Positions 2,793-63,530 of a DNA stretch of 64,000 nucleotides are shown piece after piece; positions within the stretch are counted from its first letter, which is position 1; each line of letters starts with the position of its first letter. The stretch is from Periplaneta americana (taxonomy: Eukaryota > Arthropoda > Insecta > Blattodea > Blattidae). The DNA lies in assembly GCF_040183065.1 (NCBI RefSeq), contig NC_091119.1, forward strand, positions 103,303,274 to 103,367,273, in the 5' to 3' direction. Under the pieces are notes generated by a model that ran no database searches, had not been told where the DNA came from, and worked only from the letters and a program-made list of their open reading frames with translations. The position numbers were made by a program, and so were the translations under genes.

Positions 2793-4317
2793 TTTAATAA
2801 TATTTTATTTCTAATAACAATTTTGTTTTCTGCAATTCATAGAACTTCTCATCACGTTTAATTTTTGGGCTTCATGCTTAGGAGGAACACTTCTTCATAC
2901 TCTGTCATTCTCGATGATCTTGCAGCAGAGTCCTATGGAAAGACGAAAAAAATGTTAATCATTTGCATACTACTGTACACAAAAGACACTACTTCTTATC
3001 AAAACTGTGAATTTTTTTACTTGTCTAAGTTTGAAAATTTATCAATTGTTTGAAATTATCCATTTGATCCAAACATGCAAGAAAATTTAATTTTCTGCAA
3101 AATGTACTATGATTCAAATGCATCCCACTTCATATTCCAGATCATAAATTTTAATTGTTATGAAGCACTTATACATTAATTTGTAGGTTGGGTTGGAATA
3201 ACTGTCATACAATGTATCACTCAATTTCTAGTATTCAAATTAATGTTCCCTTGTTTAACCGTTTCATATTAGTGATACATTGTAATATTATTGTTGCATT
3301 TAATATTTATGTCTTAATACTAACTAAACTGTCCTTCATTAAAGAAAAATAGCCATAATTTTTCATCATGTACACAGTTGTAAACTCCCATTCTGACCCA
3401 ATGGACTGCCTTGAAATAATATACAGTACACTGTATGATTATTATAAACCACAAAAAAGTAAATTAAAATCATCAGTACCAGTTGCAGAAGACACAGCTC
3501 TGCTGGATACATTAAGAAGATTGATTGATTGATAATATTGTAATCATAAATAGGCCTAGCAATATTCTTAGGTATGAATGAGATCTTAAACTTACCTGTT
3601 TTTGATTACTGTAGAGACTGTTAACGCCCATTCACCTGGGATTGTGGAGACAGGATTTATTGCAGACATACGTGGGATTGATGATGATGATGGTGCAATA
3701 ATGACATCCTGAAATAAGCATGTAAGTTATTAATATTAAATGAAAACGTAAACATAATACTTATTGTATTATATAGATCTTACATCAGCATTACAGCTAT
3801 GAGATGTGGAACAAGTAAATTAAGCAAATAGCCAAAATATGTTCATTAATACATAGTAAGTATTTAAAACATAATTAAACTATGCATCATTTTGCAAAAA
3901 TGAATATAAAGCAATTTTGTTAATTCTTTTCTAAATTTTTCCTCTTGACCCATCAAAGCTTTAAGATAATACATAAACAGTGAACGTTTTACAACAGCTG
4001 AGAATAATAGAGGTTAAATGGAAATCTAATTTGTCTTGTATTATATACACAGTGTGTTTAATATATCATAATATTATATTATGGATGTTTTGATTTCTGG
4101 GTTATTTGTAAGAAGTCGTCGCTGAACGATTCACATCGTTTATAGTTCACTTCTAGGGTATTGTTACACAACAAGATGGATGCACTGAACGATTCACATC
4201 ATTTATAGTTCACTTCTGCGAACGATTCCATTGTCTATTGTTACACAACACACTAAACCTGGAGTAATTTAAGCTTATTAATCAAATAAATAATTCTACT
4301 TACTGTTTTTTATATGC

Positions 4318-4745
4318 TCACCTGTATGTAATTTCTATTTTATACATATTTCATTGTTATTTTCCATCCGAAGGTCATTAAGAACGATGAATATTACTTA
4401 ATATCTCCTATCTTTCTTCAAATAGTGTTTATATGCCATTTTAATTTTCATTTGTTTTCATAAGTTAACAATGATGCACATTGGGAGCAACTTATAAGAA
4501 ATTATTTTCCTACACAATGCACGCTATATTCACGTTGTTTTGGAATTATTAATCGAAGATGGTTTGCTTATTGTTTATTACACGCACATTTGTATGTAAT
4601 TTCTATTCCATACGGTTTTTTTTCTATCCCAAGATCATTAAGAATGGTGAATATCGTTCATGCTTGTTTCTTGTATTTCTTAAAATAATGTTATGTGGCA
4701 TGTTAGTTTTTATTTGTCGTTATTTACGTAAAAATGATGCGCCAA
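4318..4745. repeat. Diverged tandem duplication, ~165 bp
   Basis: 4318-4480 and 4585-4745 share TGTATGTAATTTCTATT, then (A/T)TCATTAAGAA, then a similar TTATTT-rich tail ending near AAATGATGC. They are diverged direct copies inside the 2.2-kb element. Confidence 0.6.
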
Positions 4746-4988
4746 AAAATAAAAAATAATAATAATTTCGTACTCACTCCACATCCTATGTATTTACATT
4801 TGTTTTTCAGTAATTTATTAAAGAATGTACCGGTATTTAAAAGACTAATAATTTAGAAACATGTCACATAAATCATCCTTGTGCCAAAAGAGAATGCTCC
4901 CTGGACCAAATTATCGTATTTTGCAGTGGTCGTCAGTACTCGCTGAAATGGGTAATAATAATATAATAAAATAATGTTGTACGTAGCA
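4690..4988 (+). repeat. Left copy of ~290-bp direct repeat flanking the satellite
   Basis: This copy and 5735-6030 match through CGTTATTTACGTAAAAATGA, TTCGTACTCACTCCAC, ATGTACCGGTATTTAAAAGA and ATGCTCCCTGGACCAAATTA. A further partial copy is at 4989-5120. Each contains CAGTGGTCGTCAGTACTCGC, which resembles the left end of the hAT MITE found at 14908 and 38089. Confidence 0.75.
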
Positions 4989-5121
4989 TTTAGAAACATG
5001 TTACATAAATCATCCTTGTGCCATAAGAGAATGCTCCCTGGACCAAATTATCGTATTTTGCAGTGGTCGTCAGTACTCGCTGAAATGGGTAATAATATAA
5101 TATAATTGTTTTGCACGTAGC

Positions 5122-5678
5122 AAGCGGGGTATTGGGGCTGCAAGCCCTGATGATGATCCTACGTGTAGCACATGATGTAAAAAGCGGGGTATCGGGGCTA
5201 CAAGCCTCGATGATGATCCGACGTGTAGCACATGATGTAAAAAGCAGGGTATCGGGGCTCCAAGCCCCGATGATGATCCGATGTGTAGCACATGATGTAA
5301 AAAGCGGGGTATCGGGGCTGCAAGCCCCGATGATGATCCGACGTGTAACACATGACGTAGAAAGCGGGATATCGGGGTTGCAAGCCCCGATGATGATCCG
5401 ACGTGTAACACATGACGTAGAAAGCGGGGTATCGGGGCTGCAAGCCCCGATGATGATCCGACATGTAGCACATGATGAAAAAAGCGGGATATCGGGGCTG
5501 CAAGCCCCGATGATGATCTGACGTGTAGCACATGATGGAATTAGCGGGGTATCGGGGCTGCAAGCCCCGATGATGATCCGACATGTAGCACATGATGAAA
5601 AAAGCGGGGTATCGGGGCTGCAAGCCCCGATGATGATCTGATTTGTAGCACATGATGAAAAAAAAGCGGGGTGTCGGG
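5122..5678 (+). repeat. 60-bp tandem satellite, nine units plus a partial
   Basis: Units start every 60 bp from 5122. Each holds a 9-bp-arm hairpin ATCGGGGCT-GCA-AGCCCCGAT (loop 3 nt), then GATGATCCGA and GTAGCACATGATG. Because 60 is a multiple of three, four overlapping reading frames stay open on both strands. These are by-products of the repeat and not likely proteins. GC content is much higher than the surrounding DNA. Confidence 0.9.
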
Positions 5679-5734
5679 CACTTAAAAGTGCCTTTTCGAA
5701 AGCATGGTGATGCGCATTTGACAAACGCAGTGTA

Positions 5735-6030
5735 CTTACTTTCTAATAATCCCTTTTTATTTTTCGTTATTTACGTAAAAATGATGCGCCAAGAAATAAT
5801 AATTTCGTACTCACTCCACTTCCTATATTCACATTTGTTTTTCAGTGATTTATTAAAGAATGTACCGGTATTTAAAAGACTAATAATTTAGAAACATGTT
5901 ACATAAATCATCCTTGTGCCAAAAGAGAATACTCCCTGGACCAAATTATCGTATTTTGCAGTGGTCGTCAGTACTCGCTGAAATGGGTAATAATATAATA
6001 ATATAATATAATTATGTTGTACGTAGCAAG
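5735..6030 (+). repeat. Right copy of ~290-bp direct repeat
   Basis: Partner of 4690-4988 on the far side of the satellite, in the same orientation. It is followed by a unique stretch (6031-6240) that reaches the right inverted end. Confidence 0.75.
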
Positions 6031-6307
6031 ATCGATTATTCAATTGAGAAGATATTTTATGAGGTTGTCATGACTGAGATATCTATTGTCAATTGCTTTT
6101 ATTTGTCAGAAGGCCTTGACTGACGGGTATATAAGGACCGGCGCTCTTAGGGGTGGAGGTCGGGGTTTGGGATGGCCCACAAGTAACAAGGGAGAGAGAC
6201 ACCTAGTATTTTAAAGATTTATATCGTTCACTAGATGAGTTGATTCAACTAACCTGGAAATAATGTGAATCGTTCAGCGACGACTTCTTGTAAATAACCG
6301 ATTTCTG

Positions 6308-14907: not shown

Positions 14908-15088
14908 CAGTGGTCGTCAGCACTCGCTGAATGTGCAAAGGGTAAGCGGTGCCGTCCCGTGAGCACCGTTGTGCAGCAGGAAGCGGTAGAGAGCATACCC
15001 GCTAGCAGCTACGAGTGCACCATGGTGCACTGTGTTTTCCGCGGGTTAGAGACGCTAGCCCCAGGGTGTTCTGCGCTGAGGACCGCTG
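14908..15088. mobile_element. hAT MITE, complete, 8-bp TSD
   Basis: GTTTACAG is duplicated at 14900-14907 and 15089-15096. Ends read CAGTGGTCGTCAGCACT and, on the other strand, CAGCGGTCCTCAGCG, a standard hAT terminus. It is GC-rich relative to the flanks and non-coding. Other copies are at 38089-38260 (complete) and 18100-18243 (cut). Confidence 0.9.
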
Positions 15089-17569: not shown

Positions 17570-18099
17570 ATAGTGATACTTTACTTGCTATTTGGGAAAA
17601 GGAAATTGTACCAGAACAATGGAAGGGGTCCATAATTGTAGGTACCTACCTTTAAGAAGGGGGGCAATATCTCTTTTGTTGTCGTCATACACAATTTTGT
17701 CGAATATTCTTTTGTGGAGGTTAATTCCATATGTAGATGAAATTTCTCGGGGATCATCAGTGTGGTTTTAGGCGTAATAGATCAACTATTGACCAAATAT
17801 TTGTATTCGACAGATATTGTAGAAAAAAATGGGAGTAAGTTAACCTATAAAATTACAGTACATCAGTTAGGCCTATTTATAATTTGAAAATGGCATATGA
17901 ATCGATTAAGAGAGAAGTTTTATATAATATTCTTATTGAATTTGGTATTCCCATGAAACTAGTTCGATTAATTAAAATGTCTCAGTGAAACGTACAGCAG
18001 AGCCTTTATAGGTCAATTTCTATCAGATGTGTTTCCAATGCACTGTGGACTAAAGCAAGGAGATGCACTATCACCTTTACTTTTAACTTCGCTCTAGAG
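17570..18099 (+). mobile_element. RTE-like LINE, internal RT fragment
   Basis: Broken frames read AIWEKEIVPEQWKGSIIV, then SSYTILSNILLWRLIPYVDE, and then nucleotide sequence matching 41990-42240 (AAGAGAGAAGTTTTATATRA, GAACTAGTTCGATTAATTAA-like). This is the fingers region up to QGDALSPLL. Several stops and frame slips are present. The right side is cut by the hAT MITE, whose insertion sits in the GCTCTAGA of the reverse-transcriptase gene, and the LINE does not resume. Confidence 0.75.
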
Positions 18100-18243
18100 C
18101 AGCGGTCATCAGCACAGAGCACCCTGTGACTAGCGTCTGTTACCCGCGGAGAACACACTGCACAATGGTGCGTTCGTAGGCGCTAGCGGGTGTGCTCTCT
18201 ACTTCTTCCTGCTGCACGACGGGGTACATGGGACGGCTCCGCT
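18100..18243. mobile_element. hAT MITE, truncated copy
   Basis: Begins CAGCGGTCATCAGCACAGAG and follows the 38089 copy to GGACGGCTCCGCTTA, where the far inverted end is lost. The 8-bp duplication therefore cannot be checked. Confidence 0.8.
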
Positions 18244-18829
18244 TAATATATAAATAGGCCTAAATAAATAAATAACTTAAATAAGTTAAACGCTACTGAG
18301 AAAGTCATGTCCGTACAGAATACTGACGTCGGCACATTCAGCGGAATAGAAATTTTCGTGTCTCTTCTAGCAGGTAGAAGTGTAAGTTCAAATCACAATC
18401 ATTTATGCTTGATATTAGATCTAATTACATAGGCTGTACACAATAATTGGGGACTCAATACGGTAAACGATTAAAGTGTCTCAAACAAAAGGTGTGGGAA
18501 TCTTGCCAAACAGTATTTTTCCATAATTCTGGCACTTTCATCGTTCACCATTTCCACATATTTTATTAAGGCACTTTCACCGTTCACCATTTCTACATAT
18601 TTTATTAAGAAACATATTTTATTGCACTGAAATAATAGCCTATAACTTATAGGCCTACTGTATATTGGTAGAATTAGGCTAATGAATAGGCTAATTGTTA
18701 TGAAAAAATAATGAGCATTAGGGATAAATGAATTAGGGCCTACATACTAAGATTTATTCTACAAAATTTTGTTATTTTACTTTTCGAAACCTTTATTTTA
18801 CCTTATTAGGCCTACAAATTTGTATTTTG
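18244..18829. other. Nothing recognised
   Basis: AT-rich. A short direct duplication, TCACCATTTCYACATATTTT, occurs at about 18543 and 18583. Three TAGGCCTA palindromes lie at about 18254, 18649 and 18805. Confidence 0.4.
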
Positions 18830-19640: not shown

Positions 19641-20120
19641 ATTTTTCTCCGTTCCATTACTCTTTCATCGTATGATGACGCAGAATATCTGCATGGAAAT
19701 ATCATATGTACTTCGGTACATTAAAATAATATATATATGACATGCGTAAATCACTTCGTGATTTAAGACGGCGCTTATTCCGTCGGATTCCGGCCAACTA
19801 GTCACTCATAACGAGTGCACCTCAGCACATGTGTGGACTTCAGTCCTACGTTCATAGACATCTATGACGTAGTGTAGAGGGCGGCCACTAGAGGGAACCC
19901 AAGAGTTGGAACTTAATCTGAGACGATTCTGTCCGACGCCGGGGTGGTATCCGGTGTGGCTTAGTGGATAAAGCATCAGCACGTAGAGCTGAAAACTCGG
20001 GTTCAAATCCCGGCGCCGGAGAGAATTTTTCTCCGTTCCATTACTCTTTCATCGTATGATGACGCAGAATGTCTGCATGGAAATATCATATGTACTTCGG
20101 TACATTAAAATAATATATAG
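19641..20120 (+). repeat. Tandem tRNA-containing repeat, ~385-bp unit
   Basis: The sequence starting ATTTTTCTCCGTTCCATTAC and running through CATATGTACTTCGGTACATT appears at about 19641-19735 and again at 20025-20120, so one full unit plus about 100 bp of the next are present head to tail. A tRNA-like module closes the first unit (GTGGCTTAGTGGATAAAGCA as A box, GGGTTCAAATCCCGGCGCC as B box and acceptor stem). The right side ends abruptly at a LINE. Confidence 0.75.
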
Positions 20121-38020: not shown

Positions 38021-38088
38021 GTTAGGTTAGGTTAGCTTTTCATATGCTTTGAATTTACGAATATGTGACAGGCCAGGTTAGTTTAGAC

Positions 38089-38260
38089 CAGCGGTCGTCA
38101 GCACAGAGCACCCTGGGGCTAGCGTCTCTTACCCGCGGAGAACACACTGCACCATGGTGCACTCGTAGCTGTTAGCGGGTATGCTCTCTACCTCTTCCTG
38201 CTGCACGACGGTGCACACGGGACGACTCCGCTTACCCTTTACACATTTCAGCGACCATTG
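38089..38260. mobile_element. hAT MITE, complete, 8-bp TSD
   Basis: GTTTAGAC is duplicated at 38081-38088 and 38261-38268. Ends CAGCGGTCGTCAGCACA and, on the other strand, CAATGGTCGCTGAAATG. 172 bp, non-coding, inverted in orientation relative to the 14908 copy. Confidence 0.9.
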
Positions 38261-53142: not shown

Positions 53143-55251
<2,109 letters not shown>

Positions 55252-57126: not shown

Positions 57127-57787
57127 TTTTTATTGTTCTTTAGTGATATAAATAATATTCAAATTATATTTTGTATTCTGTTATCGTTCTTTAGCGTTAC
57201 AAATAACATTCAAGTTAATAATTATTTACATTCTGTTATCGTTCTTTATGGATATACATAATATTCAAGTTATTTATATTTTGTTATCGTTCTTTTAGCG
57301 ATATAAATAATATTCAAGTTATAATTTTTTATATTCTGCTATCGTTCTTTAGTAATATAAACAATATTGAAGTCATCATTTGTAATCTGTTATCGTTGTT
57401 TAGTGATATAAACGATACTCAAGTTATTATTTATATTCTGTTAACGTTCTTTAGCGATATAAATAATATTCAAATTATAATTTACATTCTGTTATCGTTC
57501 TTTAGTGATATAAATACTCATATTTTACATAAATAATTATTTTAATATAAATAACCATTTTTCTCTGTAAAATAGGTTATTTTATTTAAATAATTAATTA
57601 TATTTTATATAATATCTTACATTAATTAAACAAACCGATATTTACCATTTATATTGTTATCGTTTTTTAGTGTTCCTGTATAAATAATATTTAAGTCATT
57701 TATATTGTTATCGTCGTTAGCGACATAAATAATATTCAAGTCATCATTTATATTCTGTTATCGTTCTTAAGCGACATAAATAATATG
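57127..57787 (+). repeat. Minisatellite, ~51-bp unit
   Basis: TTCTGTTATCGTTCTTTAGC and GATATAAATAATATTCAAGT recur with spacings of about 47-56 bp from 57127 to 57535 (eight units) and again at 57645-57787 (three units), with an AT-rich break between. It follows the tRNA-containing repeat directly. Confidence 0.85.
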
Positions 57788-62411: not shown

Positions 62412-62734
62412 TTATATTTTTCATACCTTTATTTATTTATGTACTTTTTTACATTACAATATTAACTATAACCTAATTATGTATGAGAAAAGTTGCAAAA
62501 ATTACTGCAAGAAATACCGGTACTGAAATAATAATACTGTATACTGTGTATGTAATTATTGATTCAAAATAGTCAATTAATAATTTATTTAACTAGCTAG
62601 CTAGTGAGTACAAATTGAAATTATAAAACAAAAATGTTTCTACCAACTACTCTAAGGGGCAGGCTCGTGTACAGTGTGGTCCTAGTCAATAATGTAACAT
62701 TAAATTTACAAGGACAGTTTACTAAATAAGTAAC

Positions 62735-63530
62735 TTAATTCAGGCCATTAAATAACACACAAGAGCAAAAAAAAGAAGAAAGAGAGAAAGAAAAAAAAGC
62801 ATTTAATATAAGTTGACAATCAGACAGAAGCATTGAGCCGAAACTAGCACCATGTTCAAGAGCTGCACTTGTATGACATTTAGGCTTAATTAATGAGAAA
62901 GTAGACTTTTGTCTTCGTGTACGATATTCATGTCGATTAGATTTAAGTTTTATTTGATTTCTGTGGTAGTAAGTTAGTAAACTATATTTATAAATTCCTT
63001 CAATAGTTAATACTTCAAAATCTGAATAAATTAAATTTTTTGGGTAATCCATATTTTTGTTAGACAAATTTTTATTAATCTTCTGTGTAATAAAATATTA
63101 TTCTCAATTCCTGCTTAGTGATAAAATTTCGAAGGATTATGAATTAATAAATTGTCTTTCTTATACTTGTACACAAAAAATCAATTTGTTTATCCCAACG
63201 TAAATGTTGATCTATAATAATTCCTAAATATTTGACTTGTGCTGAAGGTGTTAGATGTGGCCAATTACAATCATTATTTGTTAATTCATTACACGTAATA
63301 TTATTTATTACTAAGTGATAATTATTCATAAGTGGAGGTAAACCTTCCGTTGTTAAAGAAAATGGAATATAGGTAGTTTTATTAGTATTTAAGGACAGGA
63401 GATTAAAGTCAAGCTAATTTTTCACTACGTTAATTCCATTGCTAGCATTTAAAAAAGTGTTATTCCAATTTCCCCCATTAAATGTTAGTAGAGTATTATC
63501 TGCAAAAGAAAATATATTACCACTTTATTT
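62735..63530 (-). mobile_element. Non-LTR retrotransposon fragment (CR1/Jockey/I-like)
   Basis: Minus strand: IFSFADNTLLTFNGGNWNN (FADN where FADD is expected), TNKTTYIPFSLT, then open 63144-63329 with VKYLGIIIDQHLRWDKQIDF, the block after the palm domain of CR1/Jockey/I-type reverse transcriptases. Frame 62735-63067 gives a C-terminal YKYSLLTYYHRNQIKL and HEYRTRRQKS. The catalytic change and several breaks exclude activity. Confidence 0.7.

Follow-up and report, generated by a model that had tools for sequence, protein, structure and literature searches.

The stretch of DNA analysed here, called the window throughout, comprises 64,000 nucleotides of the Periplaneta americana genome (contig NC_091119.1, positions 103,303,274 to 103,367,273). 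Window positions 4100-6299 are occupied by a 2,200-bp element with 37-bp terminal inverted repeats (TIRs; 35/37 paired), both starting GGTTATTT, and with a perfect octamer, GATTTCTG, lying flush against either end as a target-site duplication (TSD). An original prediction, made from the letters alone, had described the octamers, the 37-bp ends and a modular interior, all of which we confirm: the interior combines a 33-bp duplication, direct repeats of 91% identity and 9.2 units of a 60-bp minisatellite. The modules that it listed are present, and its list missed two others, a 137-bp tandem partial duplication and a worn duplication of 70% identity. Judged by sequence comparison, the element is a hybrid, in which the interior of one mobile element (called M below), trimmed at both ends, lies between the ends of a transposon of the Merlin superfamily (family 1). 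Its features, in window coordinates, are these:

4092-4099, no strand: left TSD copy, perfect octamer GATTTCTG, abutting the left end
4100-4136, plus strand: left TIR, 37 bp, GGTTATTTGTAAGAAGTCGTCGCTGAACGATTCACAT, GT variant at places 9-10
4100-4250, plus strand: left end, of family-1 Merlin origin, 93% to positions 1-146 of the autonomous copy
4122-4154, plus strand: subterminal 33-bp repeat, copy 1, overlapping the TIR
4185-4217, plus strand: subterminal 33-bp repeat, copy 2
4220-4228, plus strand: third GAACGATTC, after the second 33-bp copy
4250-6190, plus strand: interior derived from element M; without the 60-bp array, best pieces 84-93% to loci L074, L075 and L076
4275-4740, plus strand: worn internal duplication, 4275-4477 and 4546-4740, 70% identity
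4549-4589, plus strand: 41 bp matching (95%) the sequence immediately before the 60-bp array of family-2 Merlin
4707-4988, plus strand: long direct repeat, left copy, 282 bp, 91% to the right copy
4816-4913, plus strand: single unit of element M's 95/98-bp tandem repeat, 97/98 bases
4851-5106, plus strand: 137-bp tandem partial duplication, 1.9 copies
5122-5678, plus strand: minisatellite of 60-bp period, 9.2 units, 91% matches, with a hairpin motif of 9-bp arms in each unit
5754-6028, plus strand: long direct repeat, right copy, 275 bp, 91% to the left copy
6151-6190, plus strand: 40 bp matching (82-90%) the sequence immediately after the 60-bp array of family-2 Merlin
6188-6299, plus strand: right end, of family-1 Merlin origin, 100% over the first 21 bp and 96% over the next 91 bp
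6263-6299, minus strand: right TIR, 37 bp, AC variant, inverse of GGTTATTTGTAAGAAGTCGTCGCTGAACGATTCACAT
6300-6307, no strand: right TSD copy, perfect octamer GATTTCTG, abutting the right end

Both copies of the 33-bp subterminal repeat are also present in the autonomous family-1 element described below. We rejected a reading of the ~290-bp direct repeats as long terminal repeats because, on inspection, the pair is not flanked by a duplication and the expected primer site is taken up by a partial tandem copy. Frames that stay open through the array, up to 244 codons long in the window, were taken to reflect its 60-base period and not genes.

Genomic copies and unoccupied sites

All copies come from a single assembly of 3.23 Gb in 91 contigs. 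A search with the first 28 places of the TIR, allowing up to three mismatches, gave 246 matches and the reversed pattern used as control gave none, so that other copies with these ends do exist, as the original prediction had proposed to check. We fetched 50 loci, dropping L022, which overlaps L021, and counting L038-L040 as one; both ends are present in 42, and five are incomplete (L018, L029, L037, L047 and L048), L018 and L029 being the same as L032 and L035, which were fetched longer. Because the majority of the 42 were found by a whole-element query, the sample is biased toward array-bearing copies. They measure 1,171 to 23,014 bp from end to end, full-length copies are 92-100% identical to the window element, and the TSD matches at 8/8 positions in 36 and at 7/8 in four. 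The copies L041 and L042 have a common flank and are probably a single insertion copied with its surroundings. Other transposons can be nested in family-1 copies, as at L033 1174-3201, where a pogo/Tigger-like open frame of 676 codons encodes DDE_1 and HTH_Tnp_Tc5 domains.

For 40 copies the flanks were joined with one duplication omitted, and the resulting sequences were compared with 329 kb made up of the window and the loci. Ten of these queries had a relative spanning the junction, one of them (L044) within its own locus. The whole octamer stands once and unchanged at L027/L009 and L021/window 62577-62831, and once with one change at L016/L007 and L025/L042; the flanks of the 23-kb copy described below are continuous in two window relatives (42427-41963 and 18098-17731), the octamer itself being changed. 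Chance as the source of the inverted ends and of the octamer pair can be set aside for practical purposes, given the 246 end matches against a control of 0, the mostly perfect TSDs of other copies and these unoccupied sites. The original prediction had staked its case on further copies and on empty sites, and both exist, the latter as unoccupied paralogous sites; its view of a complete, TIR-bounded, non-autonomous element is borne out by the copies, by these sites and by the partner described next. Phage records had no match, nor did viral contigs queried with the end and with the unit.

An autonomous partner and membership in Merlin

A remnant coding stretch in L031, which on its own had no IS1595 match and only weak unrelated matches, led to transposase relatives in the genome. 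Three autonomous-type copies of about 2.16 kb have family-1 ends, on contigs C16 (2,164 bp), C15 (2,168 bp) and C14 (2,161 bp), with TSDs of AAATAAAC, TTCAATTC and GATGCATC, respectively, each 8/8; a partner of this kind, with the same ends, was what the original prediction had suggested looking for. The transposase frame is open in two of the three (332 and 334 codons) and has a stop in the third. The family-1 transposase matches PF12762 (DDE_Tnp_IS1595) at 5.9e-18 and 4.4e-19, and a PDB search with it returned nothing below an expectation value of 0.6. Candidate catalytic D, D and E residues in EVDESH, CTDGWKSY and VERMW align between family 1 and a second Merlin family (family 2). An autonomous family-1 Merlin is nested in a family-2 element at C15:39870732-39875215. 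The window element matches the autonomous copies over its positions 1-151 (93%) and 2110-2200 (96%), and its right TIR equals the left end of the C15 copy at 37/37 positions.

Merlin elements are marked by ends starting GG, 8-bp duplications and the IS1595 domain (PMC8101967); a duplication of 8 or 9 bp is taken as the rule for the superfamily. Because the window element has GG ends and 8-bp duplications, and because the DDE_Tnp_IS1595 domain lies in its same-ended partner, though not in the window element, we classify it as a non-autonomous member of Merlin, a named superfamily; this corrects the original prediction, which could not match it to a named family. The identity of the ends, the one argument available here, suggests that it would be moved in trans by the family-1 transposase.

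Other classes were considered and rejected. Elements of the hAT superfamily have CA/TA ends and an nTnnnnAn duplication; here the ends start GG, and of 40 duplications 10 have T as their second base and eight have A as their seventh. Helitrons, which have neither duplication nor inverted ends, are ruled out by the TSDs and the inverted ends. Miniature inverted-repeat transposable elements (MITEs) in the strict sense are short, usually below ~0.8 kb, a size that does not fit a window element of 2,200 bp with copies of the lengths given above. The element also differs from foldback transposons of the Tetris type in that its ends are 37 bp long and its array is central and not within long inverted repeats.

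A foreign interior derived from mobile element M

Window positions 4250-6190 have no match in the autonomous copy except for 21 bp near the right end, and three loci (L074, L075 and L076) carry an interior of the window type with neither the 60-bp array nor family-1 ends; it is for these two reasons that we regard the window element as a hybrid. The original prediction had it built around a satellite of its own, which does not hold, since the middle appears to stem from another mobile element. The same three loci carry at least two units of a 95/98-bp tandem repeat, the junction of which has 506 genomic matches. At L037 3324-4825 (C7:183659323-183660824), 15.3 units of this 98-bp repeat (97%) adjoin a family-1 copy; the idea that the window element made that array was dropped, the 506 junction matches lying at many other places.

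The 3' end of element M has 1,622 matches in the genome (control 0) and stops at the identical base in ten loci, eight of them newly fetched and the other two (L068 and L074) extended. The ends of M are imperfect inverted repeats starting GGT (GGTCAATGT.../GGTGAATGT...), and of seven copies with a readable 5' end three have a TSD of 8/8, one has 7/8 and one 6/8, and the remaining two have none. Because of the number of 3'-end matches, the inverted-repeat ends and the 8-bp duplications of some copies, M is, on comparative grounds, a mobile element. M could itself be a Merlin; a transposase of its own was sought only within the general search for transposase relatives, and none was found there.

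Probable growth of the array inside the element

The number of 60-bp units varies widely among the 42 end-to-end copies, a count that the original prediction had called for: five have none, thirty-six have 4 to 18 and one has 356. This last copy (C7:8501909-8524922) measures 23,014 bp from end to end and has an 8/8 TSD; its units run unbroken over 21.2 kb, the longest array examined, inside the element, and a 4,907-bp block is repeated at 99.6% over 7.9 kb. A second long array, of 38 consecutive perfect matches (C2:6957681-6959944), has a family-1 right end next to it, at C2:6961918; no left end was found for it. It is suggested by the copies compared that in one of them the repeat grew about forty-fold, which shows one stage on the way that can lead from a transposon to satellite DNA.

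Genome-wide, the pattern of the unit (35 places) has 1,710 matches at up to three mismatches in 3.23 Gb, with a control of 0, and total unit DNA comes to at most ~100 kb. The 23-kb copy holds 317 of these matches and 33 family-1 loci hold 320; the remainder would, as an estimate only, fit other family-1 and family-2 copies. A classical satellite DNA, which would have abundant long arrays, is thus rejected at 1,710 unit matches. The original prediction had proposed the element as a source of satellite DNA, which is right insofar as the element can grow a long array and not supported insofar as these matches give no sign that it seeded an abundant free satellite.

Other carriers of the 60-bp unit

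The array is not confined to family 1. The tally of placed arrays covers C1 to C2:37 Mb, and on contig C1 there are 16 places with a perfect match to the unit pattern: seven have family-1 ends, three lie beside family-2 Merlin transposases, three are M-like without family-1 ends in the fetched sequence (L063, L065 and L068), two are in a small unrelated transposon with AACATGGATTGCACC ends (L064 and L066) and one is in another repeat context (L067). The small transposon has 391 genomic end matches and so carries the unit in some copies only. When L068 was extended (C1:209552000-209556700), an M-like interior with 12 60-bp units was seen, with ACAGATGCATTATAGGGGCC on either side; read by eye, it appears to lie inside yet another inverted-repeat element.

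Family-2 Merlin has 77 genomic end matches and a transposase frame that is open over 326 codons in L057 and 331 in L062. The family-1 and family-2 transposases have 53% of residues in common, and the unit consensus is identical in family 1 (307 units, 33 loci) and family 2 (12 units, 3 loci). The family-2 array is placed between the 3' end of the transposase and the left end of the element; of the seven family-2 loci from C1 to C2:37.05 Mb, four have a perfect unit match and three have none. Because the array is followed there by the last 120 bases of M, it was probably M, or a piece of M, that brought the array to family-2 Merlin too. The converse, family-2 Merlin as the source of the array, is weakened by flanks that correspond to the 3' part of M. 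A further possibility is that the array moved between elements as free satellite DNA (for example as circles) and not within M. We think this improbable: one or a few units without M flanks do stand in the unrelated small transposon (L064 and L066) and in L067, but M-like, family-1 or family-2 sequence adjoins the array at 13 of the 16 C1 loci, and no long free array occurs among the matches listed (C1 to C2:37 Mb).

The hairpin of the unit

Each unit contains the motif ATCGGGGCT, three nucleotides and AGCCCCGAT, which can form a hairpin. Folded as DNA and compared with shuffles, a single unit has z = -2.87 on the plus strand and -2.63 on the minus strand, against z = +0.73 for a control of 60 bp from the element. 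Of 659 units counted at 41 loci (314 of them from one copy), 449 keep all nine pairs, so that the hairpin which the original prediction saw in each unit is present but not whole in every one. Changes in the nine pairs among distinct units of families 1 and 2 comprise 55 G-U pairs, 30 broken pairs and 1 restored pair, and several of the most-changed unit positions fall at the five CG steps. These one-sided changes, with a single restored pair, give no sign of selection on the hairpin, and no words common to the unit and four transposon ends were found beyond those of shuffled units. The pattern of changes is what would be expected of a young passenger, and a binding role may still exist; the protein-binding site that the original prediction had raised is thus unsupported.

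A broader version of that idea would make the array functional, its hairpins serving as binding sites for a transposase or host protein or as an enhancer of transposition, which would account for its presence in several families. The identical unit consensus in family-1 hybrids and in family-2 Merlins, with transposases that diverge as described, speaks for it, as does the presence of the array in 7 of 8 family-1 loci among the matches listed on contig C1. We nevertheless give it little credence. The autonomous family-1 copies have no array, so it is not needed; five of the 42 end-to-end copies have no unit, and three of the seven family-2 loci in the listed range have no perfect match. The absence of above-chance words common to the unit and the four transposon ends, and the nearly always one-sided hairpin changes, point the same way.

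Origin of the hybrid

The reading that we favour, and in which we have high confidence, is that the window element is a non-autonomous Merlin moved in trans by an extant family-1 transposase, that its interior has been replaced by the minisatellite-bearing interior of M, and that the array is a passenger. The ~1.87-kb interior of an autonomous family-1 copy would have been exchanged for that of M, most likely during repair of an excision gap, by a template switch at a short match. In L042, a less derived family-1 copy, family-1 sequence joins M within ATGGCTGC, and CTGCCA stands at the left junction in both the autonomous copy and M; this common motif fits such a switch. The hybrid would then have spread by cut-and-paste insertion, with 8-bp duplications, to the order of 120 copies, and the array, presumably without function, would grow after insertion and shrink through slippage and unequal exchange.

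The main alternative to template switching is that a whole M inserted into a family-1 copy by transposition and that later deletions removed the M ends and the family-1 interior. Nested insertion is common here, as seen in the autonomous family-1 copy within a family-2 element on C15 and in the long interspersed nuclear element (LINE) and other transposons that lie within L031, L033 and L036. This history is conceivable, if on balance rather unlikely: the copies compared in detail lack both ends of M and almost the whole 1.87-kb interior of family 1, and to account for this it would take two or more deletions that stop close to the boundaries of M.

Several observations weigh against the favoured reading, or limit how far it can be taken. 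The template-switch route rests on a single 6-bp match, and L042 and the window copy have different right junctions, so that this side is not readable. Two of the 42 end-to-end copies, L049 (5/8) and L036 (3/8), fail the duplication test, as do two of the seven M copies on C1, and the window element's own unoccupied site was not found in the 329-kb sample. Part of the 23-kb copy could stem from misassembly of a tandem array. The evidence for mobility comes from the comparison of sequences.

Other features in the window

A 181-bp hAT-like MITE with ends CAGTGGTC.../CAGCGGTC... lies at 14908-15088 within a perfect 8-bp duplication, GTTTACAG, and relatives of it occupy window positions 38084-38254 and 18092-18245. 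The direct repeats of the window element contain, three times, 25 bp from the left end of this MITE (96%). An Rfam scan of the window gave two transfer RNAs (tRNAs) only, a tRNA-Tyr-like sequence with flanking repeats at 19950-20021 and a tRNA-like match with a TTA anticodon at 499-572, possibly related to short interspersed nuclear elements. At 57130-57786 there is a 51-bp minisatellite of 7.5 plus 2.2 units, and at 53380-54864 a 494-codon frame on the minus strand with a DUF659 match (2e-12), a domain often linked to hAT-like transposases.

Discussion

Our search of the open-licence literature found no description, for a cockroach, of a Merlin or minisatellite hybrid. A role for transposons in the propagation of minisatellites was reportedly described in rice by Inukai in 2004, for different elements and a different host. 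Within Merlin, several families have internal tandem repeats, and the superfamily has been proposed as a spreader of proto-satellites (PMC8101967, PLoS One 2021). Those Merlins agree with ours in GG ends, 8-bp duplications and DDE_Tnp_IS1595, which here is found in the autonomous copies; however, their repeats occur in transposase-bearing families of protists and in Repbase entries, whereas in the cockroach the carrier is a non-autonomous hybrid, its interior foreign to it, and one unit is common to several transposon families of one genome. Nor is growth to 356 units inside an element among what we saw described there.

Two further systems can be compared. Tetris of Drosophila virilis is a non-autonomous DNA transposon that shares its ends with the element DAIBAM and whose internal tandem repeats have grown to kb-sized arrays, some of them between its ends, as here. 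The Tetris repeats are part of long foldback inverted repeats, and no transposase was found for it (PMC4079207); the window element differs in its central array, its 37-bp ends and its known partner. The bivalve MITEs pearl and DTC84 are likewise modular and non-autonomous, with a central tandem repeat that is also found elsewhere in the genome, but they have other ends and other hosts (PMC5139131).

Accounts of how transposons produce satellites mostly start from end states. The present genome gives a series, from a minisatellite-bearing mobile element to a hybrid, to copies with 0 to 18 units and to one with 356 units and block repeats, this last stage still lying within intact ends and an 8-bp duplication. 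With M, family-1 Merlin and the autonomous copies identified, each step is testable. The presence of one unit with an identical consensus in several families also counsels caution in inferring the kinship of elements from the sequence of their arrays. A more speculative proposal, to which we assign a low probability, is that the 60-bp unit is a module that drives recombination, its hairpins stalling copying during gap repair so that arrays grow and enter unrelated transposons. If that were true, transposases would then spread the arrays genome-wide, and in the 23-kb copy one would be seeing the birth of a satellite that has not yet left its transposon.

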